The translations under genes were made by a program, and so were the position numbers. The notes under the pieces are model-generated. The model worked only from the letters and a program-made list of their open reading frames with translations. It did no database searches and had not been told where the DNA came from. 53,790 nt of DNA from Pseudomonadota bacterium (GTDB lineage: Bacteria; Pseudomonadota; Alphaproteobacteria; Sphingomonadales; SMXR01). The stretch lies in contig JADFJJ010000001.1 of the NCBI GenBank assembly GCA_022566215.1, forward strand, positions 1 to 53,790, in the 5' to 3' direction. This document shows positions 1-49,193 of this stretch, piece by piece. Positions within the stretch are counted from its first letter, which is position 1. Every line of letters begins with the position of its first letter.

Positions 1-482
1 AGTTTCAATCTCTCCGCCGCTGCGCACCCACATGGGTGACCGGATGTGGCGCAGGACGATCACACGGATCGGGGAGGGCATCGTGGCCGAAAAGAGGGCG
101 GTCTGTCGGTCCTTGGGTGAGTAGGATAGAATCCGATCAATGCTTGGCAAGAAGCCTATGTCCAGCATCTGATCGGCTTCATCCAACACCACCGTCCGAA
201 GCTTTCCCAACTGTAGAGTCTGGCGGCCCAGGTGGTCTAGCACCCGGCCCGGGGTCCCCACGACAATATGGGCTCCTCGATTAAGGTCGGCGATCTGTTT
301 GGAGATAGCGTGGCCGCCGTAGCAAGCCACAACCCCCAGACCACGAAATTGGGCCAGGCGGCTCAACTCATCACGGACCTGGACCGCCAACTCCCGAGTG
401 GGAACCAGCACCAGCCCCTGCACCTCGGTCAGGGCCATGTCCACCTGTTCAACCAGTGGGATGCCAAAGGCGGCCGTCTTTT
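1..482 (-). pseudogene. DEAD-box RNA helicase fragment, open at the left edge and cut at ~482
   Basis: Hand translation of the reverse complement gives ...KTAAFGIPLVEQVDMALTEVQGLVLVPTRELAVQVRDELSRLAQFRGLGVVACYGG...IVVGTPGRVLDHL...VVLDEADQMLDIGFLPSIDRIL...QTALFSATMPS. Motifs PTRELA, TPGR, DEAD and SAT are present. Homology stops abruptly inside motif I (GKT). Confidence 0.85.
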
Positions 483-840
483 GAACCGTGCCGGCGACGG
501 GGCGATTTATATCTTTACGGATGCGGATCAGGCCGTCTCGGCTTCCAAGAATTTCATGATCCGGTTAGACCAGTTTAACAAAGAGACCAACACGCTGCAG
601 TCCTCGTTTAAAGTCCGGATAGGTCTCAATACCGGCGAAGTCCTGGCGAATGCCACGCAGAAACATCCGGATGTTTTGAGTCAGGTTCTGGATATTGCCG
701 GCCATCTTCAAAAACAGGCGGAAGCGGGTGAAGTCCTCATTACGGAGAGCACCTTTAGACAGCTTATCGTAAATCAAGGCTTCCGGCCCAGAGAAGAGTT
801 GAAAGAAAATAACGAGTCTGTTTACTCCCTGGAAAAATGA
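470..840 (+). pseudogene. Class III adenylate/guanylate cyclase catalytic domain, C-terminal fragment
   Basis: GGRLLNRAGDGAIYIF...FKVRIGLNTGEVLANA...DVLSQVLDIAGHLQKQAEAGEVLITESTFRQL has the GDG and R(I)GL(N)xGEV features of class III cyclases. The N-terminal part is missing; the ORF upstream of ~470 is antisense to the helicase. Confidence 0.7.
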
Positions 841-846
841 TCCGTT

Positions 847-2211
847 TTAGAGTCGCGGATCCGTTTTCAGTTTGGATATTTCCAGGTCAGCCATGACCCC
901 GCGCGGGTCACGCCGGGCGAACAGCGCGGCACCGATGGCGCCGGTATAGATGCTGTCGTTGCCGATGTTAATAACCATGTCCCCGTAATTCTCAATCACC
1001 AGTTTTTTCAGCGCGGTGGTCGCCGCCTCGTTGCGGGCGACCCCACCGGTAAAGGTAAACTCGTTTGTCACCCCGCCGCTGCGCGCCAGCAACGACATCG
1101 CCCTCAGGATAATCGCCCGGTGCAGCCCGGCCAGGATGTCCTCGCGCGCCTCGCCAAGCGCCAGGCGCTCGCGCAGTTCCGCTCCGGCGAAGACCGTGCA
1201 GGTGGAATTGATCCTGACGGTCTTGGATGACTTCATCGCCAAGGGGCCGAGCTGGTGCACCCCCATATTCATTTCATCGGCGATATAGCCCAGGTAACGG
1301 CCACAACCGGCGGCACAGCGGTCGTTCATCTGAAAGGCCGTAACGATGCCCTCTTTATCAACCTGGATCGCTTTGGTGTCCTGGCCGCCGATATCCAGAA
1401 CGGTGCGGGTTCCCGGAAACATGAAATGAGCGCCGAGACCGTGGCAAAGTATTTCCGAGCGGATCTGCTGTTTGGCGAACGGTAGGGTCAACCGGCCGTA
1501 ACCGGTGCCGACCGTGTTGACCACGTTAAAGGTGGTGGAAATGGTTGCCGCAACCGCCTCGGTAATATCATCGGCAAACGGTGCAAAGCGCGGCGCCTGT
1601 ATCGTCTTGGTCCGGGCAAATTCCAGATATTCCTCATAGCCGCCAGCAAAACTGTGGCTTTCGGTGCGAAGGATGGCGCCATCGAACAGCCCGACCAGAC
1701 GGCCGAATGACAACCCGCGCTCCATACTGACCTGCTCGGCCAGCCGCATATAGGCGCTGCTGGCGAGATCGCGGAAAAAATCACTCTCGGAGCGTTTTTC
1801 GGGATCAAATTCATCATAAACTTCCCGTTCCATTTCGCTAAAGATGTAAGACAGCGCCTGGGTGAATTTCTCCGCCTCCGCTTCCGGGCTATTCCAGTGT
1901 TTTCTGGCCCCCAGGCACTCGCTCCGTAACGTTTCCAACTGGCGAAGATATTGCGCCAGGTGGTAATAGCAGGTAAGCCACTTCAACAGGCTTGAGCTAT
2001 GTTTGCCGACATGTTTTGACTGCTCCAAATGCTGGCCGAGCAAGGCAAAACGGGCATTGATCTCCGCTTCCTCGCGGGCGATCTGGCAGGCCAGTTCATA
2101 GTTGGAGCGGGAATTGGTGATGCCGCGCCCGAGCACCCGTTCCTGGTTATCTATAAACACCGCCTTGGTGGTGGTTGATCCCAGGTCGATGCCGATGTAA
2201 CAGCGGTCCAT
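847..2211 (-). CDS. bcrA: Benzoyl-CoA reductase ATPase subunit, large BcrA/BadF type
   Basis: 454 aa. IGIDLGSTTTKAVF, VLDIGGQDTKAI, MNDRCAAGCGRYL and STCTVFAGAE are typical of the BadF/BadG/BcrA/BcrD ATPase family; long insertion as in BcrA; follows BcrC/BcrB. Confidence 0.85.
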   Translation of the reverse strand: MDRCYIGIDLGSTTTKAVFIDNQERVLGRGITNSRSNYELACQIAREEAEINARFALLGQHLEQSKHVGKHSSSLLKWLTCYYHLAQYLRQLETLRSECLGARKHWNSPEAEAEKFTQALSYIFSEMEREVYDEFDPEKRSESDFFRDLASSAYMRLAEQVSMERGLSFGRLVGLFDGAILRTESHSFAGGYEEYLEFARTKTIQAPRFAPFADDITEAVAATISTTFNVVNTVGTGYGRLTLPFAKQQIRSEILCHGLGAHFMFPGTRTVLDIGGQDTKAIQVDKEGIVTAFQMNDRCAAGCGRYLGYIADEMNMGVHQLGPLAMKSSKTVRINSTCTVFAGAELRERLALGEAREDILAGLHRAIILRAMSLLARSGGVTNEFTFTGGVARNEAATTALKKLVIENYGDMVINIGNDSIYTGAIGAALFARRDPRGVMADLEISKLKTDPRL

Positions 2212-2214
2212 AAT

Positions 2215-3504
2215 TCAGGCTCCTGGGCGTTTGGTTTCAATCATCTGGAAATAGGATTCCAGGCGGTTCTTGATATTGGCCGCGCTGAAATAACGCGGGT
2301 CAACCAGGTCGGATTCGATAAAGACTCCGGCTTTGCCGGTGCGTTTTTCCAGTTCGCGCATTATCAGAAGCTGACCGGCGGAGAACGAGTTGCAGCTTTT
2401 GATCGAATGGATCATGAAGCCGTCAGCGGAAAAATCCTTGATGTATTTCTCGAGTATATCGACCCGTGCCGGCAGCGAGTGGTTGGTATAACAGCCCATG
2501 CAATATTCGCCCAGGCTCTCGAGCGGGCGCTCCGGGTCATGGCGGAAACCGTCCTCGAACAGCCCCCCAACTTTGGTATAGGTGGAGGCCACCATAACCA
2601 CCCCTTCATCGGTGAGGATTTTCCAGAAATCACGGAAGTTGGGCCATGACGGCGGCCCTTCGACAACGATCCGGTATTTCTGGTCGTTCAGCTCGCCCTC
2701 GGGCGTTACCGGGCCGAGCTTGTTTTTAATTCGGTAATTCACTTCAGCCTTGAGGGCCTTATAATAGTCCACACACTCCGGCAGGCCGCGAAACGCAGTA
2801 AAAATGGGGCCGATGTAAAACACCCCGCCGAAATAGGCATCGATCGGCGATGGCTTGTTCTTGGCCGAATTCCATACCTCCACCAGCAGGTCCTCGGCCT
2901 GTGCGGACAGGGCCAGCATTTCCTTCAGCCGGTCGCGATCAAACTTTTTGCCGGAAACCTTCTCCAGCGCCGGAACCACCACTTCCTCAAGCTGCCTGGT
3001 GACATAATCGCGCATTTCCGGGGTGATTTTACCCTCAGCCTGATAAGGCACCTGCAACAGGACGATCGGGCAGTCATATTCTTTCTTTAATATCTCGAAC
3101 CATTTGAGAAAGGTGAAACATCCGGTGTAGCTGAGCAACAGCAGGTCGGGTTTGGGCAAGGGCAGGCCAGTGGGGCCGATATTGCCTTTTTTCATCATCC
3201 CGATGTCACATTTGACATAGGCGCAGACATCTTCCGAGTGGCCAAATTTCTCAGCCTCCTGGATATAATCGCCGCTCATCTTGCGCATGCCGGATTGCAG
3301 CGCGTTGACCTCCGGGTGAACCGGCAGCATGTCAAAGGCCAGGATCAATTCGTTAAGATTGCCGGGAACGAAGGTATAGACCACCTTCTTGCCGTTCTCT
3401 GTAGCGCGCGCGAGATTTTCGAAATGGCCAGCGATCATTTCCTTTTGCATGATCATGCTGTCTTCTTTTTGAATTTTCTGCTGAACGTTCATTGGGACCC
3501 CCAC
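2215..3504 (-). CDS. bcrB: Benzoyl-CoA reductase subunit B-like (2-hydroxyacyl-CoA dehydratase subunit family)
   Basis: 429 aa. Contains PGNLNELILAFDMLPVHPE..., LLLSYTGCFTFLKWFE, YCMGCYTNHSLPARVD and HSIKSCNSFSAGQLLI; next to bcrC and bcrA. Confidence 0.85.
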   Translation of the reverse strand: MGVPMNVQQKIQKEDSMIMQKEMIAGHFENLARATENGKKVVYTFVPGNLNELILAFDMLPVHPEVNALQSGMRKMSGDYIQEAEKFGHSEDVCAYVKCDIGMMKKGNIGPTGLPLPKPDLLLLSYTGCFTFLKWFEILKKEYDCPIVLLQVPYQAEGKITPEMRDYVTRQLEEVVVPALEKVSGKKFDRDRLKEMLALSAQAEDLLVEVWNSAKNKPSPIDAYFGGVFYIGPIFTAFRGLPECVDYYKALKAEVNYRIKNKLGPVTPEGELNDQKYRIVVEGPPSWPNFRDFWKILTDEGVVMVASTYTKVGGLFEDGFRHDPERPLESLGEYCMGCYTNHSLPARVDILEKYIKDFSADGFMIHSIKSCNSFSAGQLLIMRELEKRTGKAGVFIESDLVDPRYFSAANIKNRLESYFQMIETKRPGA

Positions 3505-4646
3505 AGTTTAATGGAATCGGCAAAAGTGCCTGTCTGTTCTTTGATCACCTGAATTTGTCCGGTGTTCTCGGCGTATTTGAAGGCGGTGTAAGGGATGTTT
3601 TCCCGGGCCAGCACTTCCTGGATCATGGGCCGGTCCAAAAGCGCCGGATCACAGAAGCTGGGGGCGGCAAAGATCACCCCCTCGGCCTTCCGCTCACGCA
3701 CCTGCCTGACCAGGTAGTCCCCTTTACCTGGGCCCGGAACATAACGCGAAGCGGTCGCCACCGTTTCACCCAGATAGGCATCGGCCAGAGCCTCGATCGG
3801 TTTATCGCCAATGGCGATCGGCTCCAGCTGGTAACGATTTCCCAGGACCCAGTCATCATCAACGATAAAGCAGCCGCTGTTTTCCAGCGCCTTGACCAGG
3901 GTTAGCGGCGGCTGTTCGCAAAAGGTTCCAGTCACCACCACCCGGACATGGTCGCGCTCCGGCCGCTCACTGTTTGAGATGGCCGTAATATAATCCCGCA
4001 GCATTTTTGTGTGTTCGCCTACTTCCAGAATATTGGACGCGCGCATCAGCAAAAACAGCTCAGCGGTTTTGACCTTGTGCGGCATCTGGCTGCGGAGATC
4101 ATATAACTCGGTGATCAGGTGTCGGTTTTCATTGTAAAGCCCGAATGAGTGATTGAGCGCCTCCGGCGTGATCTTATTCCCTGAAATTTTTTCGAAAGCC
4201 TTTGCCATACCGGCAAGCTCGGTGAGATAAAATCTCCGCCCCTCGGCGCCGAAATTCTGAGGCATATCGAGATACTTGATGTATTTGCCCTCGAACATAA
4301 TTTGCCACATGCCACTCAGGTTACGGATCACATCGCAGATCGCCGGGAACAGCATGCCGTCCAGAAAATCAAGCCGTCCGGAGACCCCGAGCTCGATGGT
4401 TGAGCGGGGGATGCGGCAGATATAAGACTGGAAATAGGCATCTCCCCGGATGATCTCCAGGTTATCGCCGCCGCCCATGATCCCGACCGGCAGCATGCCG
4501 GCGGCATGGATCAATTCTCTCGGGGCGTAAACCGGCATAAAGCCAATCGCCCCGGCCTTGTTTTTCTCTTTCCAGTCCTTGACATAATTGAAATCAAGAT
4601 CATCGTAGAGGTCTTCACAGCGTTTTATGATGGTTTCCACTTTCAT
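3489..4646 (-). CDS. bcrC: Benzoyl-CoA reductase subunit C-like (2-hydroxyacyl-CoA dehydratase family)
   Basis: 385 aa. GFMPVYAPRELIHAAGMLPVGIMGGGDNLEIIRGDAYFQSYICRIPRSTIE is characteristic of the HgdB-like family; overlaps bcrB. Confidence 0.85.
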   Translation of the reverse strand: MKVETIIKRCEDLYDDLDFNYVKDWKEKNKAGAIGFMPVYAPRELIHAAGMLPVGIMGGGDNLEIIRGDAYFQSYICRIPRSTIELGVSGRLDFLDGMLFPAICDVIRNLSGMWQIMFEGKYIKYLDMPQNFGAEGRRFYLTELAGMAKAFEKISGNKITPEALNHSFGLYNENRHLITELYDLRSQMPHKVKTAELFLLMRASNILEVGEHTKMLRDYITAISNSERPERDHVRVVVTGTFCEQPPLTLVKALENSGCFIVDDDWVLGNRYQLEPIAIGDKPIEALADAYLGETVATASRYVPGPGKGDYLVRQVRERKAEGVIFAAPSFCDPALLDRPMIQEVLARENIPYTAFKYAENTGQIQVIKEQTGTFADSIKLWGSQ

Positions 4647-4658
4647 TTTTTTCTCCGC

Positions 4659-5252
4659 TTACCCAGCCGCACAGCCTTCGGTGAAGGTGCGGAAAATATC
4701 GTCCGCCAAATCCTCCGGGGTGCCGTGAGCGCCGCTTGAATACCAGCCGAAAATCCAGTTCATCATGCCGAACAGCAAATAGGTTTTGCGCGCCAGTTCC
4801 ACCTCGCTCAGACCAGACCCGCGGGCCTCGGCAATGTAAGCCTGAACAATTTCCTGAACATTTTGGCGGTAAACCTCCTTGAGCCGGTTGATCTCCCGGC
4901 CCCGGTCCTTACTCAATTCAAGGGTGCCGAACATCATCACCCGCATTTCATCCAGGTGGTCGACGAAAAACCCGATATGTCTGTTGATCAGGCCCTTGAG
5001 CATTTCAGTCGGCCCAAACCCGGCCTCGCGCAGGTCCTCAGCCAAGTCCAGAAGCGAGCTAAAGCCCCGCTTGTTGATCAGGTACAACAGGTCCTCCTTG
5101 CCTTCGAAATAATGGTAAAGACCCGACAGGCTGCGCCCGGTTACCTCGGCCAGGTCACGCATACTGGTGCCGTGGTAACCACGGTGCGCCATTAAGCGCG
5201 CGGACCTTATCAGAATTTCGTCCAGGTTCGGGTTGGGGTTGGTCTCAAGCAT
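4659..5252 (-). CDS. TetR family transcriptional regulator (start taken at MLETNPNPN)
   Basis: N-terminal HTH: ILIRSARLMAHRGYHGTSMRDLAEVTGRSLSGLYHYFEGKEDLLY. Confidence 0.9.
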   Translation of the reverse strand: MLETNPNPNLDEILIRSARLMAHRGYHGTSMRDLAEVTGRSLSGLYHYFEGKEDLLYLINKRGFSSLLDLAEDLREAGFGPTEMLKGLINRHIGFFVDHLDEMRVMMFGTLELSKDRGREINRLKEVYRQNVQEIVQAYIAEARGSGLSEVELARKTYLLFGMMNWIFGWYSSGAHGTPEDLADDIFRTFTEGCAAG

Positions 5253-6021
5253 GTTTCCACTCCGGTTTGCGTTTTTCCAAAAAAGCCGCGATGCCTTCAT
5301 TGGCATCATGGCTGGCCATCAGGTCATCCAGATAAAGGCGTTCCAGATCGCCAATGTGTTCATTGTAATAGCGGACCAGGGCCCACCGCGCGGCCTTATG
5401 TGCTATGCGCAAGGAGCTGGCGCTCTTGGGGCAGATCTGGTTTTCGATAAAGTCCGCCAAGACATTGTCCAACTTCCCAGTTGGGGCCAGCGTATCGACA
5501 AATCCGGCCCGGTGCAGGGCCTTGGCGCCCATCCCGTCTCCGGTCAGAACCAGCCGGTTGGCGCGGGCGCTACCCACCGTCCAGGGCAGTAAAAGCGCCG
5601 CCACCGGCGGAAAGACCCCCAGTTTAATCTCCGGCACGGCGAAGTTTGCGCTCTCATCGGCGATCACAAAGGTGCAGGCCAGTGCTATCTCGAACCCGCC
5701 GCCCAGACACTGGCCGGACACTTTGGCAAGGGTCGGAACCGGATGGTCCAGAATCTTACCGATCAGGCGATGAAAGGCCGGCAACATATCACCAACCTGG
5801 TCACGCTGGTGTTCCTCGACACTGGCGCCGAAACAAAAATTCTTACCGGCTCCCTGAAAGACGATCAGCTTGCGTCCTGCCTCAGTTCTCTCCAGCTCCA
5901 GCCGGTCCTCAATTTCAGCCATCATCCGGGCGGTCAGGATATTGGCGGGTGGGGCGTCAAGCGTGATTTCACACACCTGGCCGTCAAACAGCTCCCGAAT
6001 TTTTATGGTCTGATACCTCAC
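5245..6021 (-). CDS. dch: Crotonase-family hydratase, probable cyclohexa-1,5-diene-1-carbonyl-CoA hydratase
   Basis: 258 aa crotonase fold (GAGKNFCFGASVEEH...VSGQCLGGGFEIALACTFVIADE); sits between oah/had and bcr genes. Confidence 0.8.
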   Translation of the reverse strand: MRYQTIKIRELFDGQVCEITLDAPPANILTARMMAEIEDRLELERTEAGRKLIVFQGAGKNFCFGASVEEHQRDQVGDMLPAFHRLIGKILDHPVPTLAKVSGQCLGGGFEIALACTFVIADESANFAVPEIKLGVFPPVAALLLPWTVGSARANRLVLTGDGMGAKALHRAGFVDTLAPTGKLDNVLADFIENQICPKSASSLRIAHKAARWALVRYYNEHIGDLERLYLDDLMASHDANEGIAAFLEKRKPEWKHA

Positions 6022-6024
6022 AGC

Positions 6025-7119
6025 TTATCCTTTCGGCATGATCTTTTCGAACAGGCGTTCGTCCCACGGAGCGGCTTTGGCCAGCTCGCGCCTCAGCCTT
6101 AAGAAATCCACCTCGCGGTTATGACGCGGCCCCTCATTGAAGGCGCGGAAACCGGCCTTGCCTTCGGTCATCATGTTGAGCGCCAGCCACGAGCGGTTGG
6201 TCTCACAGTTCTTAAGCCAATGCTCCAGTTTCTTTTTGCGCAGGGATTCAAGAGTTTTGTTCAAGCAATCGGGCATGGTCAACGCAAGACGGTAGGCAAA
6301 TCCATTGACCTCGGCGTCCAGCAGACTTTGATCGACCGTGCATTCGGCGGCCACCTTTTTGGCCTCCGCGCGGGCCTCGCCGGTCTTGAACGCGCCATAG
6401 CTGGGGTTGCCCCAGGCGTCAAAAGGTTCCGTCCCGATAAACGGATTGGAGATAAACTCGCCCCGAGCGTCTTTCAACACCGGCACGATCTTGTTGATCA
6501 ATCCCAAATGTACCGCCGCATGAGCCGACCATGGTTCGCACAAGGTGCAGCTTTCAATGGCATGGCCGATGCCGACAAAAAGATGCAGAAAGTCGGTCGC
6601 ACCGCCGTCCGGAGCTGAGCCGTGCTTGGGGCCGGCTTGGCCGAAACGCGCGGTATCGGCGGCAATAGTGTAATCGCAAGCCATGCCGATTTCCTGACCG
6701 CCCCCAACCCTGAGCCCGTTGACCCGGTTAATGACCGGTTTGTCACAGGTCAGGATGCCAGTGACCATGTCGTTAAAGAGACGCATGTACTGTTTGTATT
6801 CTTGCGGATTACCGGCGTAATATTCGGCGTATTCCTTGGTGTTGCCCCCGCTGCAAAATGCCTTGTCTCCCATGGCTGTAAAAACCACTGCGACCACCGA
6901 ACGGTCGCATGACGCTTGACGAAAAGCGAGAATGATCTCTTTGATCATTTCGGTGGTATAGGAGTTGAACTGGGCCTCGTTGTTGAGCACGATCCAGAAA
7001 TTATAAAGTCCCTTTACTGTCTTTCCTTCACCGTCCAGCAACGGGCGTTTTTCAGCGGTAATTTCATTGTACTCGGGGTCCTTTATCAAATGATGGTTCT
7101 TCATGTTTCCACTCCTCAA
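6025..7119 (-). CDS. oah: 6-oxocyclohex-1-ene-1-carbonyl-CoA hydrolase
   Basis: 364 aa crotonase-family protein: NNEAQFNSYTTEMIKEIILAFRQASCDRSVVAVVFTAMGDKAFCSGGNTKEYAEYYAGNPQEYKQYMRLFNDMV; neighbours dch and had. Confidence 0.88.
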   Translation of the reverse strand: MRSGNMKNHHLIKDPEYNEITAEKRPLLDGEGKTVKGLYNFWIVLNNEAQFNSYTTEMIKEIILAFRQASCDRSVVAVVFTAMGDKAFCSGGNTKEYAEYYAGNPQEYKQYMRLFNDMVTGILTCDKPVINRVNGLRVGGGQEIGMACDYTIAADTARFGQAGPKHGSAPDGGATDFLHLFVGIGHAIESCTLCEPWSAHAAVHLGLINKIVPVLKDARGEFISNPFIGTEPFDAWGNPSYGAFKTGEARAEAKKVAAECTVDQSLLDAEVNGFAYRLALTMPDCLNKTLESLRKKKLEHWLKNCETNRSWLALNMMTEGKAGFRAFNEGPRHNREVDFLRLRRELAKAAPWDERLFEKIMPKG

Positions 7120-7121
7120 AT

Positions 7122-8189
7122 TTAATGCCCTGGTGCCAGAATGGCCCGGCGCTCAAGCTTGTGAGCAACAGCCAGAGCCACCACTTCATTGATCTGGTCC
7201 AATGGGTGGATTTCGATATTGTCGGCCAAGTTGATCTTTCGCGTCAGGACGTCACCCACCACCACCGGGTAGTGCCGGGGAGAACACCCCCAGTTGCCGA
7301 AAAGAGAGGCATCAAAAGCCATCACGTTCGACAGCCGGAGTGAAATCTTCTCCATGGTAAAGCCGATGATGCTGACCGACCCGGCGAAGCTCAGCAGCGC
7401 AAAGGCCGCGCTTTGGCCGCCGGCGCTGCCGCTGGCCTCATATACTTTCCACTGGGTGCCGGGCAGCTTTTGTTCCTTGACCAGGGCGCGGACGGTTTTT
7501 TTCAACTCCCGCTCATCCCGGCCCTTGCTGCAGATGGTGAAATCTGCGCCTTGCTTTTCAGCAACCGCCAGCTTGGCGGCATCGACATCGATTGCGATCA
7601 CGGTGGCGCCGGCGTTTTTGGCGTGCTGGACCATATAAAGCCCGATCCCACCGGTGCCGATAACGATTGCCAGATCTCCTGCTTTTAGACCTGATCTCAC
7701 CATTGCCTGATAGGGGGTGGTGATGGCATCGGCGACAACCGACAGCTGCGCCAGGTCAAAGCCTTCCAGATCGTCGGGCAATTGGCACAGCGACCGTCCT
7801 GGCACCACCACATGGCTGGCAAACCCGCCGTTAAAGTCGTTTCCCGGCATTTCCTGGTGGCGGCAGATATTGTCGCGCCCGGCCAAGCACAACTCACATT
7901 CCCCACACGGCAGGACCGCCGGGACAATCACCCGTGTTTCAAGTTTGTCCTGATAATGCGCCCCGGCGGCGATCACAGCGCCGCTGATCTCATGACCCAG
8001 CACCAGCGGCAGATCGTGCTTGGTGCGCACATCGCCGGACATAAAAGCCAAATCGGTATGGCACAGGCCACACCCGGCGACCTCGACCACTACCTGATCG
8101 TCGGCCAAGGCATCAATGGTAAATTCCCGCCGCTCCAGAGCTTCGCCTGGAGTGCAAAGAAAATATCCGTAAGCCTTTATCTTGTCCAA
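7122..8189 (-). CDS. had: 6-hydroxycyclohex-1-ene-1-carbonyl-CoA dehydrogenase (zinc-type MDR)
   Basis: 355 aa. CGLCHTDLAFMSGDV, LGHEISGAV, CGECELCLAGRDNIC and GTGGIGLY; position in the benzoyl-CoA operon. Confidence 0.85.
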   Translation of the reverse strand: MDKIKAYGYFLCTPGEALERREFTIDALADDQVVVEVAGCGLCHTDLAFMSGDVRTKHDLPLVLGHEISGAVIAAGAHYQDKLETRVIVPAVLPCGECELCLAGRDNICRHQEMPGNDFNGGFASHVVVPGRSLCQLPDDLEGFDLAQLSVVADAITTPYQAMVRSGLKAGDLAIVIGTGGIGLYMVQHAKNAGATVIAIDVDAAKLAVAEKQGADFTICSKGRDERELKKTVRALVKEQKLPGTQWKVYEASGSAGGQSAAFALLSFAGSVSIIGFTMEKISLRLSNVMAFDASLFGNWGCSPRHYPVVVGDVLTRKINLADNIEIHPLDQINEVVALAVAHKLERRAILAPGH

Positions 8190-8351: not shown

Positions 8352-10112
8352 TCATTGGATCACCATCACCCCTGGCCCGCCCTGGTAAAGGCACGTTACC
8401 AGACCGGCGCGCCGCTCAAGCACCGCCCGCTGGCTGATGTATCCCTTGTCGGTAATTTCATTGGCATCGACATTCGGCGGCTCGGCCAGCAACAGAACCC
8501 GCCCGATCCGGGTGCTCGAGCCCGGGTTTTTGCGGTTATAGGCGGCAAGCCCTCGGCACAGTATTTTTTGCACCTTAATTTCAGCGATAACCTGATCTAG
8601 TGAGGTATCAGAATCCAGACCGGCAACCTTGGCGGCTGCCTCGATATTGGGAAAAATTAGCAGACCCACTTCGTCCCGGTCATGACCGGTGACCACGGCG
8701 TCCTGGATAATCGGCGCCCCGGCGGAGATGGCCTTGATACGCAGCTCACCAACATTTACCCACGAACCCGTCATAAGCTTGAAATCCTCGGCGATCCGGC
8801 CATCAAACACCAAGCCCTTTGAGGGATCGTCCGGATCGGCGAACTTGACCGCGTCGCCGATTTTATAAAACCCGTCCTCATCGATGACCTCGGCAAAAAG
8901 ATCAGGGTCTTTATAATACCCGGGAGTTACGTTGGGGCCGCGGACGCGAACCTCCAGTTTACCGCCGTTAGGCACCAGCTTAAGCTCTGATCCCGGGACC
9001 GGCAGACCGATCACCCCGGCCTTGTCGACTGGGAAGTGAACCGAGGTTACTAGCGGCGCGGTTTCGGTCGAGCCCCAGGCGGCGGTCATCGGGATCTTTT
9101 TTCCACAGCTTCCCAGGGACAGTTTTTCCAGCCGTTCCCACAGCTTCTGCGGCAAGGCGGCGGCGGCGTAAAAAATCATATCGAGCCTGGAAAAGAAGTG
9201 ATCACGCAAATCCTGGTCCTGCTCCAGATAGGGAAGCAACATGGCATAACCGCTCGGGACATTGAAATAAGCCGTCGGCGCGACCTCGCGGAGATTGGCG
9301 ACCGAGCGGGAAAACAGGGCCGGGGTTGGTTTGCCCGCGTCAATATAAAGCGTCCCGCCGTTGCGCAGGATCATATTGAAATTATGATTGCCGCCAAAGG
9401 TATGGTTCCACGGCAGCCAGTCCAGCAGCACCGGCGGCCGTTTGGCGACAAACGGCCAAACCTGGGCCATCGCCTGCTGGTTGGAGCAAAGCATCCGATG
9501 GGTATTGAGCACCCCCTTAGGTTTGCCGGTAGAGCCCGAAGTGAACAATATCTTGGCAACCGTATCGGGGCCGACTTTAGCAAGGGCTTTTTCTACCAAC
9601 GGTGTCGGGACTGTCTCTTCCAGTGCAGCAAAGTCTTTATCGGCGACCACCTCGACACCGGCAAGATCAAGCGCGCCGAGCGCTTTTGAATAGGACTTTC
9701 CGTTCGCCGCATATATCAGCCCCGGCTGGATCAGGTTGAAAATATAGCGAAGTTTTCCGAAATCATCCGAGAGCAGCGAATAGGCTGGTGAAACCGGCAC
9801 AGCCGGGACGCCGATATACATGGCCGCCAGTTGCAAAAGTCCGTTTTCGATACTGTTTTCCGACAAAATCATGACCGGACGTTCCACCTCAAGGTCCCGG
9901 TCGAGAAGCGCTTGGGCGATGGAGCGAACCCGCTGAAGGGTGTTCCGATAGGATATTTTCTGCCAGTGATTGGCCGCATCCCGCTCAGCCAGAAAGGTCC
10001 GGCCGGGGGCTTTTTCAGCCCAGTATTTCAGGTATTCCAGCAGGTGTTTGGCATAAGGCTCCAGCGCCACCGGCGAGCGCACAATAAGCCGCCCGCCGCT
10101 CAAGCTTTTCAC
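8352..10112 (-). CDS. Feruloyl-CoA synthetase-like acyl-CoA ligase (true start probably further upstream)
   Basis: 586 aa ANL enzyme: [58 protein letters not shown]. The frame stays open and homologous upstream ([15 protein letters not shown]), so the start may overlap the thiolase gene. Confidence 0.8.
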
Positions 10113-10159: not shown

Positions 10160-11386
10160 TTATCCGGTCCTTTTTGTCCTTTGCTGATCCCGCACCCGCA
10201 GCACCACCGCCATCGCCGTATCGCCCGCCGCACAGCCCTGGAACAAGCCGGCGCCGCCGCCGCGCAGCGCAAGTTCCTCGATCAATTCGATCATTGAGCG
10301 CAGCGCCGTCGGCCCCTGCGGGTGTCCCCAGATCAGCGAGCTGCCAAAATTGTTCATGGTCTCGAGATTGGCGCCGGTCTCCCTGGCAAACACAATGTCA
10401 TTCACCGCGAACGGGTTATGCGATTTGATCGCATCCATATCACTGATCGCCAGTCCCGCCTGGTCCAGCGCCCGCCAGGCGGCGGGGATTGTGGCCTCCG
10501 GCATAAAGGCCAGTTTGGTCCGGGCGCTGCCAAAGCCCAGGATTTCAATTATAATGTTTTTATCCCGGCTCAACTCAGCGGCGCACCCGGGCGTTGTTAC
10601 GATCATCGCCGCGCTGCCGTCGGCCGGGTGGGTCTGGGCGGCATAGGTGAGCGTACCCCCCTTGATAATCGGTTTCAGTCCGGCCAGGCTCTCCTTGGTT
10701 GAGGTGCTGATACCCTCATCTCCGTCAAGCATCCCGGCAGCCTTGCGGTAATTGGCGCTAGGCACCTCAAACGGCAGGGTCATGTAACGCCTCTGGAACG
10801 CCCGCTTATTCTTAAGTGCATCACCATACTGGTCCTGACGGCGTAGCACGACGCTGTGCTGTTGCTCGGTACTGATGCCGTGTTTGGCGGCGACATTCTC
10901 AGCAGTAGTGATCATGGCGTGGCCGCCCAGCGGATCGCAGGAGAAATTATCCATAACCCAATTCTCAGATATGCCTGTTCCCCCCGGGCCTTCTGGGTTG
11001 GGGTAATAAACATGGGGGCCGTTCGAGGTCCTATCGCAGGTCATGATCAGCACAGTTTCCGCCAGCCCGGCGTCAATTTCCTGCGCCGCCGCCAGCAACG
11101 CCCGGGTGCCGGTGGCGCAAGCCTGGTTGATGGTTGGCCCGCCCACCCCGTCTGCCCCCATGAGGCCGGTCAGCCAAGGGGTTCCATAGAAGGATTGATG
11201 CTGGGGGATGGTCATCCCGAGGATTGCGTAATCAAATGCCTCGGCCGCAACCCCGCGCGCTGCAAGTTCCCGTTCCGCCACATGGGCGGCGAACCTGATG
11301 CTATGCAGATGCGCCAGGCTGCCCTGCCACTTGGCGAACGGTGTTGACCAATAGGCGCCGTAAGGGATGCGAGCTGAATAGGTCAT
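10160..11386 (-). CDS. Thiolase-family protein, candidate aroylacetyl-CoA thiolase
   Basis: 408 aa. Nucleophile region GPTINQACATGTRALLAAAQEI; SHNPFAVND, WGHPQGPTA and GCAAGDTAMAVVLRV resemble NEAF/HNPF, GHPxG and Cx(2)G thiolase motifs. 4-bp overlap with the aminotransferase gene. Confidence 0.8.
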   Translation of the reverse strand: MTYSARIPYGAYWSTPFAKWQGSLAHLHSIRFAAHVAERELAARGVAAEAFDYAILGMTIPQHQSFYGTPWLTGLMGADGVGGPTINQACATGTRALLAAAQEIDAGLAETVLIMTCDRTSNGPHVYYPNPEGPGGTGISENWVMDNFSCDPLGGHAMITTAENVAAKHGISTEQQHSVVLRRQDQYGDALKNKRAFQRRYMTLPFEVPSANYRKAAGMLDGDEGISTSTKESLAGLKPIIKGGTLTYAAQTHPADGSAAMIVTTPGCAAELSRDKNIIIEILGFGSARTKLAFMPEATIPAAWRALDQAGLAISDMDAIKSHNPFAVNDIVFARETGANLETMNNFGSSLIWGHPQGPTALRSMIELIEELALRGGGAGLFQGCAAGDTAMAVVLRVRDQQRTKRTG

Positions 11387-12690
11387 AATTGAACCTCAGC
11401 AGCAACATCTTTCAATGCCGCTCCCGCGCGTTCCAGAGCCTCATCAATATGAGCATCGGTCATGACCGTCGATAAGGCCATCATGCCGCGCGGCGCCAGG
11501 AACAACCCGTGGTTCAAGGCGGCATGATGAAACATGCCCATAATTTTAGTATCCTCGCGGACGATGGAAGATTCCGGTGCTGCCGCGCTGAAATAAAGAT
11601 TGAGGCAAGAACCGAAATGGTTAACCGAAACCGGCAGCCCAGCCTTTTTGACTGCCCGGATCAAGCCGTCTTTGAGTTTTTCAGCCAAGCCATGCATGAC
11701 CGCGATCCGCTCGCCCGTCAACTCCCGCACAGCGACATCGCCGGCAGCCATGGTGACCGGGTTGGCGTTATAGGTGCCGGTGTGGAAAACCTTCAAGTCG
11801 GCGGGGTCAAAGACCTTCATAAACTCAGCCGCGCCGCCCACCGCGCCGACCGGAAACCCACCGCCGATGGCCTTGCCGAGCATGGTCAGGTCAGGCTTGA
11901 TGTCAAAATGCTCCTGGCAGCCGCCAGTGGCGAATCGGAAGCTCAGAACCTCGTCCAGAATAAACAGCGCCCCGGCTTTATGGGCGGCGGCTTTGACCCC
12001 TTTAAGAAACTCAGGCGTGGCCGGAATAACCCCGCCCGAACCCAACACCGGCTCGAGAAAAACCGCGGCGATTTCATTGCCGTGCTTGGCCAACACGGCC
12101 TTGAAATTCGCCAGGTCATTGAAGGCGGCAAGATAAGTGATCGGCCCCTCATGACCGAACGAACCGGTCTCAAACTCCATCAATGAGCCGTGATAACCAT
12201 AACGCGCCATCAGCAATTTCCGGCGTCCGGTAATTTTACGGGCGATGGTGAAAGCCAGCGCCCCGGCTTCGGTACCCGAATTGGTAAACCGTACCTGATC
12301 CACTGACGAAATACGGGCCACAATTTGTTCGGCCAAACGGTTTTGCATCCGATTGCCCGCTGCCCAGCCGGTACCCCGCCGAATCTGCCTTTCCGCCGCT
12401 GCGACAATTGGCGGGTAAGCATGGCCATGAACCATGGAGGTATAGTTGTTGATCATATCGAGATAACGGCGCCCGTCGACGTCAAACAGATGTACACCCT
12501 CAGCCCGCTCGATCGCCAGCGGATGTGGGGTCCAGAAACTGGCCTGCCGGGAATTGCCGCCCGGCATAACCCGCTGGGCCGCCTCAAAAAGCGCCGCACT
12601 TTTCCGCGTGCGGGCTCGGTATGTCTTTAGGATTGGCGAAGCGATAGGAGCAGCTTGTGTGTTAAAACCGGATGTGAGTTGAGAAACCAT
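11383..12690 (-). CDS. PLP class III aminotransferase of the GSA-aminomutase/beta-amino-acid aminotransferase group
   Basis: 435 aa. MPGGNSRQASFWTPHPLAIERAEG, RFTNSGTEA, FILDEVLSFRF, LTMLGKAIGGGFPVGAVGG (PLP lysine), FHTGTYNANPVTMAAG. Confidence 0.82.
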   Translation of the reverse strand: MVSQLTSGFNTQAAPIASPILKTYRARTRKSAALFEAAQRVMPGGNSRQASFWTPHPLAIERAEGVHLFDVDGRRYLDMINNYTSMVHGHAYPPIVAAAERQIRRGTGWAAGNRMQNRLAEQIVARISSVDQVRFTNSGTEAGALAFTIARKITGRRKLLMARYGYHGSLMEFETGSFGHEGPITYLAAFNDLANFKAVLAKHGNEIAAVFLEPVLGSGGVIPATPEFLKGVKAAAHKAGALFILDEVLSFRFATGGCQEHFDIKPDLTMLGKAIGGGFPVGAVGGAAEFMKVFDPADLKVFHTGTYNANPVTMAAGDVAVRELTGERIAVMHGLAEKLKDGLIRAVKKAGLPVSVNHFGSCLNLYFSAAAPESSIVREDTKIMGMFHHAALNHGLFLAPRGMMALSTVMTDAHIDEALERAGAALKDVAAEVQL

Positions 12691-12698
12691 ACCGCCCC

Positions 12699-14366
12699 CT
12701 ACCAGTCGTAAGCATCTACGTTCGGTGGCAATGCCATCAGCAAGGCGCCCGACTGAAACAGATCCGCGGCGGCCTCGAGATGATCGGTCATCGGCTCGTC
12801 ATGGTCGAGATAAGGAACCTTTTCCCGCACCACGTCATAGAGCTTTTTTGTTGCCCGGCTGAGGTGCTCTACACCACGAATGTCGGCCGCCTGGCAGGCA
12901 CAAAGCAATTCGAACCCAAGGATATAATAACAGTTCTTCAGGATATCGCGGGTGCGTCTGGCAGCCACCAGGCCGAACGACACATGATCCTGGAAATCTC
13001 CGGTCGAGGGCAGCGATTGTATCGACATCGGGGTGCACATCTGGCGCACTTCCGCGGTCAAAGATGTAGCCATAAACTGACCCCCCATAAGACCCTGGCG
13101 CAGGCCCGGGTTCTCCTTGCACAGGAACGGCGGTAAATCGCCGTTAAGGCTGGGATGCAGAAGCCGGTTATTGCGCCGGTCCGACAAATTGCACATGGTC
13201 ACCAACACCGTTGCCATCTGGTCCATGGCGTTTGAGATATACTGTCCGTGGAAATTGGCGTTATGAACAACATCGTTTTCAGCGACTACGATCAGCGGGT
13301 TGTCGTTGGAGGAGTTAAGCTCAATCTCGAGCGTCCGCTGGACAAACAGCGTGGTGTCAAGAACCGGCCCCAAGACTTGTGGCGTGGCTCTTATGGAATA
13401 AGCATCCTCGATCTGTTCATCCAGGCCGCGCGGTTTATCCCGGGCCATTTTCCTGAGCCACTGTTCCACTTCATGGTCCTGAACAATCATTTTACTGTCG
13501 GCCAGGGTGCGGTAAATGCAGTCCGCGACCCGGACCTGGCCGGGATGCGGTTTTTGCCGATGGGCGGCGGGGTGGAACGGCATGATCTTTGCTTTCTGCA
13601 CCTCAAGACTGAGGCACGTGGCCAGCAGATAAGCGTTTATCAGTTGTTTGACATCGGCGGTCAGACAAGAAGCCATCCCGGCCATCAGCGAGGTTCCGTT
13701 TATCAGGGCCAAGCCTTCCTTGTAGCCCAACTCCATCAGCTCAATGCCGGCCCGCTTCATGGCTTTGGCTCCTGGTATAATCTCGCCCTGGTACTTGGCG
13801 CGCCACTGCCCGGTCCCGACCAAAGCAATACAGGCCAGAGGCGACAGATCACCGCTGGTGCCGAGCGAGCCTTTTTCGGGAATGCACGGCACGATGCCGC
13901 GGTTGTACATCGCCACATATTTTTCGAAATTTTCCAGGGAAATCGCCGAAGCCCCGCGTCCCAGCGAATTAATCCGCGCCAGCATTGCCGCGCGCACATA
14001 ATGATCGTCCAGATAATCCCCGACATTGGACTGGACACACTTAAGGATATTGTTCTGCACCTCACCAGCCATGGAGGCCGGAACCAGCCAGTTGACGAAC
14101 CCGCCCACGCTGGTCGTAACGCCGTAAATAATGCGGCCCGAAGCCACAAATTTTTCGAGCAACTCACGCGAGGCGGTTACGCGCTCACGGATTTCATCGG
14201 TAATTTCAACTTGACTGAGGGGCTCTTGGACGGCGGCGGCCAGCGCTTCGATGGTCATACTGACGCCGTCGGGAATGATCTGGGGAGGAAATGTTTTGCC
14301 GTGACCATTCGGACTGCAGTCAGTGACGTGTTTAGCGGCAACTGGCTTGGGAGCCTTGAGATTCAT
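12699..14366 (-). CDS. MIO-type aromatic amino acid ammonia-lyase/2,3-aminomutase
   Basis: 555 aa. IYGVTTSVGGFVNWLVP inner loop; GSLGTSGDLSPLACIALVGTGQWRAKYQGE gives a Thr-Ser-Gly MIO triad (codons at 13851-13859); LINGTSLMAG; NSSNDNPL; HNANFHGQY. Confidence 0.88.
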   Translation of the reverse strand: MNLKAPKPVAAKHVTDCSPNGHGKTFPPQIIPDGVSMTIEALAAAVQEPLSQVEITDEIRERVTASRELLEKFVASGRIIYGVTTSVGGFVNWLVPASMAGEVQNNILKCVQSNVGDYLDDHYVRAAMLARINSLGRGASAISLENFEKYVAMYNRGIVPCIPEKGSLGTSGDLSPLACIALVGTGQWRAKYQGEIIPGAKAMKRAGIELMELGYKEGLALINGTSLMAGMASCLTADVKQLINAYLLATCLSLEVQKAKIMPFHPAAHRQKPHPGQVRVADCIYRTLADSKMIVQDHEVEQWLRKMARDKPRGLDEQIEDAYSIRATPQVLGPVLDTTLFVQRTLEIELNSSNDNPLIVVAENDVVHNANFHGQYISNAMDQMATVLVTMCNLSDRRNNRLLHPSLNGDLPPFLCKENPGLRQGLMGGQFMATSLTAEVRQMCTPMSIQSLPSTGDFQDHVSFGLVAARRTRDILKNCYYILGFELLCACQAADIRGVEHLSRATKKLYDVVREKVPYLDHDEPMTDHLEAAADLFQSGALLMALPPNVDAYDW

Positions 14367-14508
14367 GTTGAATTCCTGATTGGTTTTTGAACTTTATGAC
14401 AGCTTACACCTAATTTGGCGGAGAAAATTGTCTATTTTACCGAAAAATGATGTAAAACTAAAAGGAATGGTCTATAATTAAACAAAATAAGAAAGGATAT
14501 TCTATATT

Positions 14509-15003
14509 ATGACGCCAACCCGACAAGACTGTGCACTTGCTTTCGACAGTTATGAACGCCATATCCTTATCGAGCTGCAGGCCAACGCGCGGCTGACCAA
14601 CCAGGAGTTGGCCGAACGCGTGAACCTTTCGCCTTCGGCCTGCTGGCGCCGGGTCAAGGCCCTGGAAGACGCCGGCGTCATCCTGCGCTATGTGGCCATT
14701 CTCGATCCCCGGAAGGTTGGTTTTGGGGAAAATGTCTTTGCCCATATTACCCTGATACGCCATTCGGCAACCCTGGCCCGGGAGTTTACCGACGAGATCA
14801 GCAAACACCCGGAGGTGATGGAATGCTTCAACACCACCGGCGACGCCGATGTCCTGCTGCGGGTCGTGACGCCCAGTGTCTCGGCCTACGACGAGTTTCT
14901 TGAAAAGACCATTTTCAGGGCTCCGGGATTAGCCCAGGTGCGCTCCAACTTCGCACTCAGACAGGTGAAATTCGAGACCGCCCTGCCGATCGCAAAACCT
15001 TGA
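14509..15003 (+). CDS. Lrp/AsnC family transcriptional regulator
   Basis: 164 aa. FDSYERHILIELQANARLTNQELAERVNLSPSACWRRVKALEDAGVI HTH plus RAM-type effector domain. Confidence 0.92.
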   Translation: MTPTRQDCALAFDSYERHILIELQANARLTNQELAERVNLSPSACWRRVKALEDAGVILRYVAILDPRKVGFGENVFAHITLIRHSATLAREFTDEISKHPEVMECFNTTGDADVLLRVVTPSVSAYDEFLEKTIFRAPGLAQVRSNFALRQVKFETALPIAKP

Positions 15004-15037
15004 AACCAGTTTGCCAAATTATTGTCTGAATTTGAGG

Positions 15038-15523
15038 ATGGGTGACGTGAAAAAAATTGTCAAATTCACACTTAACGGACAGCCGCATGTCGGGGCTGTT
15101 GCTGATAATATTCTTCTCATCGATTACCTGCGTGGAATGGGACTGACCGGCACCAAAACCGGTTGTGATGGCGGCGAGTGTGGAGCTTGCACGGTTTTGA
15201 TCAACGACCAGCCAGCCCTGGCCTGCCTGACCCTTGCACCAACCGTTCAGGGCGCCCGGGTTGAGACCATCGAATCACAATCCCGGGGCGGCGGCCTTTC
15301 GGATATTCAGCTTGGGTTTCATCACAAACTCGGGTCCCAGTGCGGCTTTTGTACGCCCGGTTTTATCATGGCGGCAGAAGGGCTGCTGCGCCGCAATCCC
15401 CAGCCGAATGATGAGGAAATCCGCGAGGCGCTGGGCAGCAATATCTGCCGCTGCACCGGTTATGTGAAAATTATCGAAGCTGTCAAATGGGCCGCCAAAG
15501 AGCGTGGCAGGGGGGTGAGGTGA
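15038..15523 (+). CDS. hcrC: 4-hydroxybenzoyl-CoA reductase gamma subunit, 2x[2Fe-2S]
   Basis: [21 protein letters not shown] and [10 protein letters not shown]...CRCTGY motifs; followed by Mo subunit and FAD subunit. Confidence 0.85.
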
Positions 15524-17838
15524 CTGAAACCACCACCCGCGTCAGATCAATCGGCCTCCATGTGCCAATGGTCGATGGCCCGGAAAAAGTTTCCGGCCGG
15601 GCCAAATACACCGCCGACCTGGTGCCGGTGGGGGCGTTGGCCGGACGAATTTTCCGCAGTTCCTGCAGCCATGCCGAGATTATCAGCCTGGACACCTCTG
15701 CCGCCTTAAAGCTGCCTGGCGTGATGGCGATCGTGACCGGCGCGGATTGTGACACAACCTTCGGGGTGTTGCCGATTGCCGCCACAGAATACCCGCTGGC
15801 TAGGGTGCGCATTCGCTACCAGGGGGAACCGGTCGCGGCGGTTGCCGCCGTTGATGACGCCACCGCAAAAAAAGCCTTGTCGCTGATCAAGCTGAAAGTC
15901 AGGGAATTGCCAGCCTATCTGACCCCGGAGGCGGCTACGGCAAAAGACGCCATCGACCTGCACGAGAAACGCCCCGGAAATATTGAGCGCGAGGCCGATT
16001 ATGAATTGGGGGACGTGACGGCCGGGTTTGCCAAAGCCGATCTGGTGCGCGAGCAAACCTTTACCACCTCAGAGGTCTGCCAGGCCCATATGGAGCCCCA
16101 CGCCGCGATTGCCGAGTTTGACCCTGTCCGCAGCCGGCTGACGGTGCATTGCACCACCCAGGTTCCCTATTATGTGCACCTGATGCTGGCCCGCTGCCTG
16201 AAAATGGACAAATCGCAAATCAGGGTGGTGAAACCCCAGCTGGGGGGTGGATTTGGAGCCCGGACGGAGGCCCTCAATGTCGAGCTGATCTGCGCCTTGC
16301 TGGCGAAGAAGGCTGGCGGCACGGTGCGTCTGCTGATCAGCCGCGAGGAAACTTTTTTAACCAGCCGCTGCCGCCCGCAGTCTTGGTTAAGGATGAAAAT
16401 CGGCCTGACAAAGGAGGGCCAAATCACCGCGGCGGAACTGGAAACTATTCAGCGCGGGGGCGCTTACAGCGGCTACGGCATTGTCACTATCCTTTATGCC
16501 GGGGCACTTCTTTATGGGCTGTATGACCTTCCCAGCGTCAAATTCCTTGGCAAAAGGATATTGACCAATACCCCGCCCTCGGGGGCCATGCGCGGCCATG
16601 GGACGGTTAAAACCCGTTTTGCCTTTGAGGCTTTGCTGGACAGCATGGCGCGTGAGTTGGACCTCGATCCTTTCACGGTGCGGCGCGCCAATTTGCTGAA
16701 GGCCCCAACTTTCACTAAAAACGATTTAATGGTCAACAGTTATGGGCTGGCCGAATGTTTGGATTGGACTGAAAAAGCCAGCGGCTGGAAGATCAAAAAA
16801 GGAAAACTGGAAAAGGGCCGGGGGATCGGCATGGCCTGTTCCCACTATATCAGCGGCGCCGCCAAACCGGTCAACTGGACCGGCGAGCCACACGCCACCA
16901 TCAACCTCAAGCTTGATTTTGACGGCTCGGTAGTGGTGCTGACCGGTGCCGCAGAGATCGGCCAGGGGTCATCCACTATCCTGGTTCAATGCGTGGCCGA
17001 GGTTCTGGGCCTTGATCTTTCGCGCATTCGGATTGTCGCCGGGGATAGTGAGGTAACCCCCAAGGACAACGGCTCTTATTCGTCACGGGTGACCTTCATG
17101 GTTGGCAACGCCGCCGTTGAAGCGGCCCGCAACCTCAAGACTGTTCTGGTCACGGCGGCGGCCAGAGAGCTGGGCGTCAAACCGGAGGATATCGAGGTTC
17201 TGGGGGAAATCTACCGTGCCGCCTCACAGGATAAGGGGCTCAGTTATGATCAGGTGGTTGCCGCAGCGCTAAAAGATAGCGGCACCATCATGGTAAAAGG
17301 TACCTTCACGACCCCGCTTGAAGCCCAGGGGGGAAAGGCCTACCGGGGCGCCGCGGTGGGCGCGACCATGGGGTTCAGTTATGCCGCCCAGGTGGTTGAA
17401 GTCAGTGTTGACGAGGAAACCGGCCAGGTCACGGTCGAAAAAGTGTGGGCGGCGCACGATTGTGGCAAAGCGCTTAACCGGCTTACGGTCGAGGGCCAGA
17501 TCCAGGGCTCGGTGTGGATGGGTATGGGCCAGGCCCTCAGCGAAGAAGTGGTATACCACCCCAAAAGCGGTCTTCCGCTGACCGCCAGTCTCCTGGATTA
17601 CCGGGTTCCGACGATCAAGGATTCGCCCCCGATTGAATGCCATATCGTTGAAAGTAACGACCCCAACGGCCCGTTTGGCGCCAAGGAGGCCGGCGAAGGA
17701 TCCCTGGCGGCATTCATCCCGGCGTTCACCAACGCCATTGAGGATGCCATCGGGATACGTTTTACCGATCTGCCGGTAACCCCGGACAAAATTTTTGCGG
17801 CAATGGAAAAAAGAAAACGCGCTACAGGAAAGCTATAA
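15520..17838 (+). CDS. hcrA: 4-hydroxybenzoyl-CoA reductase alpha subunit (molybdopterin), GTG start
   Basis: Xanthine dehydrogenase-family large subunit: [56 protein letters not shown]; overlaps hcrC stop and hcrB start. Confidence 0.87.
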
Positions 17839-18824
17839 TGGAATCCTTACCAGACTTCGATCTGATCCGCCCGCGCACCCTGGACGAGGCGGTAAAAGCG
17901 CGGCAAAAGTTCCCCGGCAACCGCCTATTAGGTGGCGGCACCGACCTGCTGGTCAATATCCGGCGGGGCATAGGAGATGCGCCCACCGCTCTGATCGACA
18001 TGACCAATATTGCCGAGCTTAAAACTATTAAGGCTGATGCCAAGAAGCTGAAAATAGGGGCCTCTGTGACTATTCAGGAGGTCGCAGATGACAGCACCAT
18101 CGCCCATCACTATCCGGCGATTGCCGAGGCCGCGGCTTCAATTGCCGGGCCCACCCAGCGGGCCATGGGAACACTCGGCGGCAACCTTTGTCTTGATACC
18201 CGCTGCATCTATTACAATCAAAGCGACTGGTGGCGCTCGGCCAACGGATTTTGCCTCAAATACCAGGGTGAAAAATGTCACATCGCGCTCAAAAGCAAAA
18301 CCTGTTTTGCAACCTATTCGGGGGACCTGGCTCCCGCGGCGATGGTCCTTGGGGCGGAGGTTGAGATTATTGGCCCAAATGGCCAGCGGAGACTAACCCT
18401 GACCGATCTTTATTCCGGCGACGGGCAAAACTATCTGACCCTGGAGGAAGGGGAGATTATAACCGCCCTTTCAATCAAGAAAGAGCCCGGCCTTCGGAGT
18501 GGTTATGAAAAGATCAGAACCCGCCAGTCGATTGACTATCCCCTGGCCGGGGTGGCCGCTGGGTTGTGCCGGGAAGGCAATAAAATCACTGATTTTCACA
18601 TCGCCGTAACCGGGACAAATCCAAAACCGGTGTTGCTGGATGGCACGGCGCATCTGGTTGGCGGTCCGCTTGATGATGAATTTTTCAATGCGCTTGATAA
18701 GCTGATGAGCGCACAGATCAAGTCGATGAAAACCACCCTCGCGCCCGGCAATTACCGCCGCAAAATGGCTGGGGTTTTGGCCCGGCGTTTAACCAAAAAA
18801 CTGTTCGACAATTATTGCCAATAA
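17838..18824 (+). CDS. hcrB: 4-hydroxybenzoyl-CoA reductase beta subunit (FAD plus additional [4Fe-4S] loop)
   Basis: 328 aa FAD subunit with Cys-rich insertion CLDTRCIYYNQSDWWRSANGFCLKYQGEKCH, the feature that separates HcrB from ordinary XDH FAD subunits. Confidence 0.88.
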   Translation: MESLPDFDLIRPRTLDEAVKARQKFPGNRLLGGGTDLLVNIRRGIGDAPTALIDMTNIAELKTIKADAKKLKIGASVTIQEVADDSTIAHHYPAIAEAAASIAGPTQRAMGTLGGNLCLDTRCIYYNQSDWWRSANGFCLKYQGEKCHIALKSKTCFATYSGDLAPAAMVLGAEVEIIGPNGQRRLTLTDLYSGDGQNYLTLEEGEIITALSIKKEPGLRSGYEKIRTRQSIDYPLAGVAAGLCREGNKITDFHIAVTGTNPKPVLLDGTAHLVGGPLDDEFFNALDKLMSAQIKSMKTTLAPGNYRRKMAGVLARRLTKKLFDNYCQ

Positions 18825-25172: not shown

Positions 25173-25218
25173 AGGGTGAGCAGCCAAATTATGTACATTG
25201 GCTTGTGGAGTAAGGCCC

Positions 25219-44293: not shown

Positions 44294-44294
44294 C

Positions 44295-45592: not shown

Positions 45593-45595
45593 GAC

Positions 45596-48370: not shown

Positions 48371-48372
48371 TC

Positions 48373-49190: not shown

Positions 49191-49193
49191 GGT

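Follow-up and report, generated by a model that had tools for sequence, protein, structure and literature searches.

To our knowledge, MIO aromatic aminomutases are described only from antibiotic and taxol biosynthesis. The EncP-led route, which is biosynthetic as well, leads from cinnamate to benzoyl-CoA via beta-oxidation. AdmH (PaPAM) of andrimid biosynthesis, represented by structure 3UNV and family model TIGR04475, forms (S)-beta-phenylalanine (PMC3903478), a compound from which Paraburkholderia forms the beta-keto acid by transamination (PMC6150868). In the acetophenone route of Aromatoleum (Apc, Bal), a benzoylacetate-CoA ligase is followed by a so far unknown thiolase (PMC4729919), and the standard anaerobic route of phenylalanine degradation in A. 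aromaticum runs via phenylacetyl-CoA (PMC9765128).

The window, i.e. the whole stretch of 53,790 nucleotides of alphaproteobacterial DNA analysed here, carries an AdmH-type MIO gene that probably heads a catabolic operon leading from phenylalanine, possibly from both phenylalanine and tyrosine, via a beta-amino acid to benzoyl-CoA. This catabolic setting, a benzoyl-CoA operon combined with a beta-amino-acid transaminase, appears to be the main point of the locus and was missed by an earlier, sequence-only reading of the MIO gene.

Kinship and active site of the MIO enzyme

The MIO open reading frame (12699-14366, minus strand) comprises 555 uninterrupted codons, and both peptides GSLGTSGDLSPLACIALVGTGQWRAKYQGE and IYGVTTSVGGFVNWLVP are present in its translation. 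The TSG triad and the AdmH-like inner loop noted by the sequence-only reading are borne out in this intact 555-aa frame, the triad as T170-S171-G172 (13851-13859) and the loop as residues 80-96 (14079-14129), both on the minus strand. The protein is a full-length match to Lyase_aromatic (PF00221; 519.7 bits over positions 1-466), and this score, the XSG triad and the catalytic Tyr identify it as a genuine member of the MIO superfamily and not a chance match. Alignment showed that residues Y81 (14124-14126, minus strand), Y323, R326 and N356 are retained.

Comparison with the PDB ranked AdmH/PaPAM (3UNV) first with 604 bits, followed by an SgcC4-type tyrosine aminomutase (318 bits), and by HAL (~250 bits), Rhodobacter TAL (245 bits) and Anabaena PAL (200 bits). 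Among NCBIfam models, the phenylalanine aminomutase family TIGR04475 (747.2 bits) preceded HutH (454), TAM (424) and PAL (274). The cut-off of this D-beta-phenylalanine-forming equivalog is 800 bits, which the window protein missed, and the other tested members of its clade scored 728-744 bits, so that the clade forms a consistent set narrowly beyond the limits of this curated family.

The phylogeny proposed by the sequence-only reading was computed by maximum likelihood from a MAFFT alignment of 39 proteins that included HAL, AdmH and SgcC4, with PAL and RsTAL absent from the tree, and placed the window MIO beside AdmH and outside HAL. Together with homologues from the alphaproteobacterial genomes G006, G164 and G777 and from the deltaproteobacterial G775 and G776 (two copies each), the window protein formed one clade (100/99), sister to the AdmH-type clade with joint support of 100/99 and apart from SgcC4 and HAL. 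The two MIO halves of G777 (L040 and L129) were merged as one protein because both contigs end inside the gene; the poorly placed long-branch lyases of plasmid origin (L139-L142) were left out of the evidence. The clade is rare, being found in 2 of 385 sampled genomes of the class, source included, and only in the source genome in a phylum sample of 399. The source genome has a second MIO gene on contig C49, which groups with HutH. An AlphaFold2 model of the window protein (pLDDT 83, pTM 0.87; low confidence at the N-terminus and inner loop 83-91) retrieved 3UNV at rank 1 in a fold search, with 55% identity.

Hence the kinship with AdmH and the preference for an aminomutase over HAL, PAL or TAL put forward by the sequence-only reading were upheld by PDB, NCBIfam, tree and fold, and the enzyme is predicted to be an aromatic 2,3-aminomutase forming (S)-beta-phenylalanine from L-phenylalanine. 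The TSG triad, which that reading had used as a discriminator, was rejected as an aminomutase marker, since ASG occurs within the same clade, in deltaproteobacterial members whose MIO gene adjoins a transaminase gene, and also on the AdmH side of the tree in Roseibium and Fluviispira members. Sequence separates MIO aminomutases from lyases, but without certainty, and by analogy the window enzyme may have mixed aminomutase/lyase activity. With AdmH it shares ~55% identity, TSG, the inner loop IYGV(N/T)TS(M/V)GGFV, valine and phenylalanine at positions 111 and 431, and the fold; contrary to AdmH, it belongs to a sister clade below the TIGR04475 cut-off, and its gene is part of a catabolic operon, not of an NRPS/PKS cluster. 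It is best described as a predicted new sub-clade within a known kind of enzyme. The Roseibium plasmid MIO (ASG; L024 10004-11599), near the AdmH clade, is flanked by adenylation-domain genes and a methylaspartate mutase gene, and this locus is possibly an uncharacterised natural product cluster for a beta-amino acid.

The pocket permits a partial statement on substrate preference. The Lys-Cys selectivity pair reported before proved to be off by one: MAFFT aligned V111, next to C110, with His93 of SgcC4, and AdmH-type enzymes have Ala-Val here. The column of SgcC4 Tyr415 holds F431 (13074-13076, minus strand), and both V111 and F431 are as in AdmH homologues. The tyrosine 2,3-aminomutase SgcC4 (SgTAM) shares the MIO aminomutase fold and the catalytic Tyr with the window enzyme at ~38% identity, and differs by its His and Tyr at these two positions. 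The residues therefore lean toward phenylalanine as substrate, and the earlier view that the Phe/Tyr preference cannot be read from the sequence holds only in part. In the two Deltaproteobacteria, the duplicated MIO genes surround the transaminase gene (G775, L038 6532-8190 and 9965-11584; G776, L039 7319-8485 and 10004-11605), and the equivalent of position 431 is Tyr in copy 1 (MIO1) and Phe in copy 2 (MIO2), which suggests a division of labour between tyrosine and phenylalanine. Copy 1 of L039 is split into two ORFs.

Gene neighbourhood and its conservation

The minus-strand order is MIO, transaminase, thiolase, acyl-CoA synthetase, had, oah, dch-like, TetR, bcrC, bcrB and bcrA. A class-III PLP transaminase, predicted to be a beta-phenylalanine:2-oxo-acid aminotransferase (11383..12690), lies 8 bp past the MIO gene and overlaps by 4 bp with the gene of a divergent thiolase, the predicted benzoylacetyl-CoA thiolase (10160..11386). 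These are followed by an acyl-CoA synthetase (8352..10112; NF009232/PRK12582, above cut-off), which is a predicted benzoylacetate-CoA ligase, and by the genes for 6-hydroxycyclohex-1-ene-1-carbonyl-CoA dehydrogenase (had, 7122..8189) and 6-oxocyclohex-1-ene-1-carbonyl-CoA hydratase/hydrolase (oah, 6025..7119), both above cut-off. Further along are a dch-like cyclohexa-1,5-dienecarbonyl-CoA hydratase (5245..6021; best model, below cut-off), a TetR-family regulator within the operon (4659..5309), and benzoyl-CoA reductase subunits C (bcrC, 3489..4646) and B (bcrB, 2215..3504), both above cut-off, with a bcrA-like ATPase/activase subunit (847..2211; 555 bits, cut-off 578). No bcrD was found in this assembly; in G775, G776, G777 and G164 a bcrD-like second activase adjoins bcrA. 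Beyond bcrA (1-847), a short cyclase-domain ORF (268-840, plus strand) overlaps the end of a DEAD-box helicase.

The best PDB matches of the transaminase were VpAT (4AO9; 270 bits), StoTA (6K8H; 270 bits) and MesAT (2YKU; 266 bits), a narrow margin over GSAM (247 bits). Because this margin is modest, its assignment leans on residues and context as well. R48, K273 and R401 align with the residues of VpAT and MesAT that comprise both substrate-carboxylate arginines (P-pocket and O-pocket) and the PLP lysine; in the PDB chain of VpAT, residue numbers are shifted by 20 throughout. R48 aligns as well with R36 of StoTA, the proposed substrate-carboxylate binder of that enzyme (PMC10589169). Although these three are its closest structures, the window transaminase has 37-39% identity to them and forms a separate subgroup. 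From its nearest solved relatives, residues and context, it is predicted to be of beta-phenylalanine type.

In the thiolase, the Cys-His-Cys set C90, H355 and C385 is kept in three orthologues, HNPF replaces the canonical NEAF motif, and the best curated model scored 171 bits, below its cut-off of 241. No orthologue was found in G164 and G776. The ligase family presumably includes feruloyl-CoA synthetases, and cinnamate would suit it equally.

On the plus strand, an Lrp/AsnC regulator (14509..15003) is divergent from the MIO gene, an arrangement present in all six genomes. The region between them (14367..14508) is a candidate Lrp operator with two ATTCCTTTT / TATCCTTTC-like sites 31 bp apart. 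In three alphaproteobacterial genomes (window, 14367-14508; G777, L129 8783-9015; G006, L027 4652-4766), tandem copies of approximately ATCCTTTCT, spaced by 30-31 bp, lie next to the divergent Lrp gene. This pattern was spotted by eye and post hoc; in G164, with its distant Lrp, it is missing. The Lrp gene is followed by those of 4-hydroxybenzoyl-CoA reductase, i.e. a gamma-like subunit (15011..15523, below cut-off), an alpha subunit (15487..17838, above cut-off) and a beta subunit (17838..18824, above cut-off), all on the plus strand, and then by a nar operon with narG above cut-off. Near the nar genes, in both the window (27197-27997, plus strand) and G006 (L027 12614-13399, minus strand), there is a DUF6969 protein with ~68% identity between the two. 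A second aromatic amino acid enzyme of the window (25198-26583, plus strand) belongs to the tryptophanase/tyrosine phenol-lyase family (PRK13238 above cut-off; TPL 551 and Tna 527 bits, both below their cut-offs). A separate plus-strand cluster (41232-50384), whose first gene encodes a bifunctional salicylyl-CoA 5-hydroxylase/oxidoreductase of PRK08255 type (above cut-off), continues with SDR, MarR, enoyl-CoA hydratase, acyl-CoA dehydrogenase, CoA ligase, thioesterase, RidA and PcaF-type thiolase genes; it is reminiscent of a CoA pathway for 2-aminobenzoate or salicylate.

Besides the window, G164, G775 and G776 also have MIO and transaminase genes side by side, which makes four of the six MIO genomes. 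G164, from another alphaproteobacterial family, has Lrp divergent from MIO (75%) followed by the transaminase (64-66%), with bcrCBAD on a separate contig. One 61-kb contig of G775 (L038) unites bcrDABC, dch, oah, had, thiolase, MIO2, transaminase, MIO1, Lrp and ligase. In G776 (L039) the order is ligase, Lrp divergent from MIO, transaminase and MIO, and bcrCBAD-dch-oah lie on another contig. The transaminases of these Deltaproteobacteria are StoTA-like (361 bits, next match 277) and 35-37% identical to that of the window; therefore two beta-transaminase subtypes pair with the same MIO clade. Two contigs of G777 (L040/L129) carry bcrCBAD, ligase, Lrp divergent from MIO, thiolase, ligase and RidA, with bcrCBAD ~5 kb from the MIO start; no transaminase adjoins MIO here, and a VpAT homologue (52% identity) is encoded elsewhere in the genome. 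G006 (85% complete) showed only the Lrp gene divergent from MIO (81%), and no close relative of the transaminase and no bcr genes were detected in it. Overall, bcrB was present in 5/6 MIO genomes versus 15/385 sampled in the class, and its presence in four of the five MIO genomes besides the source has P ~1e-5 at the class rate, two of them lying outside that class.

Proposed route and competing readings

According to the proposed route, the MIO aminomutase would convert L-phenylalanine into (S)-beta-phenylalanine, which the transaminase, judging from the solved structures nearest to it and from its two arginines for substrate binding, would turn into benzoylacetate. The acyl-CoA synthetase would then form benzoylacetyl-CoA, the thiolase would cleave it to benzoyl-CoA and acetyl-CoA, and Bcr, Dch, Had and Oah, assigned to their families by computation, would reduce and open the ring. 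In a beta-tyrosine variant, the product would be 4-hydroxybenzoyl-CoA, to be reduced to benzoyl-CoA by the adjacent 4-hydroxybenzoyl-CoA reductase. The divergent Lrp regulator probably acts as the amino acid sensor. The proposed route would bypass phenylacetate, need neither enoyl-CoA hydratase nor hydroxyacyl-CoA dehydrogenase, and be oxygen-free. Its stereochemistry fits, because AdmH makes the (S)-beta-phenylalanine that is transaminated in Paraburkholderia. The pathway families, gene order, conservation and residues were computed here, and from them we infer every substrate. The phenylacetate-CoA ligase model had no match in the source genome (93% complete) and none over cut-off in G164, with matches above it in G775, G776 and G777.

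The same genes could serve a lyase route, with the MIO enzyme acting as PAL or TAL, the ligase forming cinnamoyl- or coumaroyl-CoA, beta-oxidation and the thiolase yielding (4-hydroxy)benzoyl-CoA, and the transaminase being unrelated. EncP is a PAL and AdmH shows such activity at high temperature (PMC3903478), the MIO genes of G777 and G006 have no adjoining transaminase, and FadB-, hydratase- and thiolase-like genes do occur elsewhere in the window. However, at no locus does a dedicated hydratase or dehydrogenase gene lie between those of ligase and thiolase, transaminases of beta-amino-acid type and of two distant subtypes adjoin MIO in four of the six genomes, and the tree groups the window protein with aminomutases, all of which makes this route unlikely. 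MIO aminomutases are reversible, so that the enzyme might also run in reverse, or as salvage, in the degradation of external beta-phenylalanine or a related beta-amino acid. The known beta-phenylalanine transaminases do stem from degraders of this compound (PMC6150868), but with a transaminase present an MIO enzyme would be superfluous for beta-phenylalanine, and the MIO gene comes first and is the element conserved most consistently, even in G777 and G006 where no transaminase adjoins it; we regard this reading as very improbable.

A reading in which the operon serves mainly tyrosine, yields 4-hydroxybenzoyl-CoA and depends on the Hba reductase is unlikely, too. The hba genes just past the divergent Lrp gene, found above cut-off in G164 and G777 too, and the Tyr of deltaproteobacterial MIO1 in place of the Phe shared by MIO2 and the window enzyme argue for it, whereas V111 and F431 of the window enzyme resemble the phenylalanine enzyme AdmH and not SgcC4. 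The nearest named relatives of the window MIO are annotated phenylalanine aminomutases in NRPS/PKS clusters, which might point to beta-phenylalanine made for a natural product, as by AdmH. The window ORFs include no recognisable NRPS, PKS or carrier-protein gene, and genes of benzoyl-CoA catabolism are the neighbours in several genomes; a biosynthetic role was rejected on this gene context and is extremely improbable.

Relation to known pathways and significance

The preferred reading, degradation via a beta-amino acid, has benzoylacetate and benzoylacetyl-CoA as its last two intermediates in common with the acetophenone route of Aromatoleum, where benzoylacetate arises by carboxylation of acetophenone and not by the transamination of beta-phenylalanine proposed here. 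It shares the benzoyl-CoA endpoint and a nitrate-respiring context with phenylalanine degradation in A. aromaticum, whose phenylpyruvate/phenylacetate steps are absent from the proposed route. The EncP-led route likewise combines an MIO enzyme, a CoA ligase and a thiolase toward benzoyl-CoA, but it is biosynthetic, uses beta-oxidation and has no transaminase. In the literature searched, of which most subscription journals were not a part, nothing was found that links an MIO aminomutase to benzoyl-CoA catabolism, and the pathway appears from it to be a new combination of known steps. For a wider beta-amino-acid route from phenylalanine and tyrosine to (4-hydroxy)benzoyl-CoA in anaerobes, with Tyr and Phe paralogues in some Deltaproteobacteria and AdmH as sister to the catabolic lineage, we consider the chances evenly balanced.

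If the proposed route holds, the catabolic clade would give MIO aromatic aminomutases a role in primary metabolism and would bear on the origin of AdmH-like enzymes, and protein-derived phenylalanine and tyrosine would reach benzoyl-CoA without passing phenylacetate. The window thiolase is a candidate for the benzoylacetyl-CoA thiolase, an enzyme still to be identified, according to PMC4729919, in acetophenone degradation. The enzymes of the operon would offer a natural set toward enantiopure beta-amino acids.
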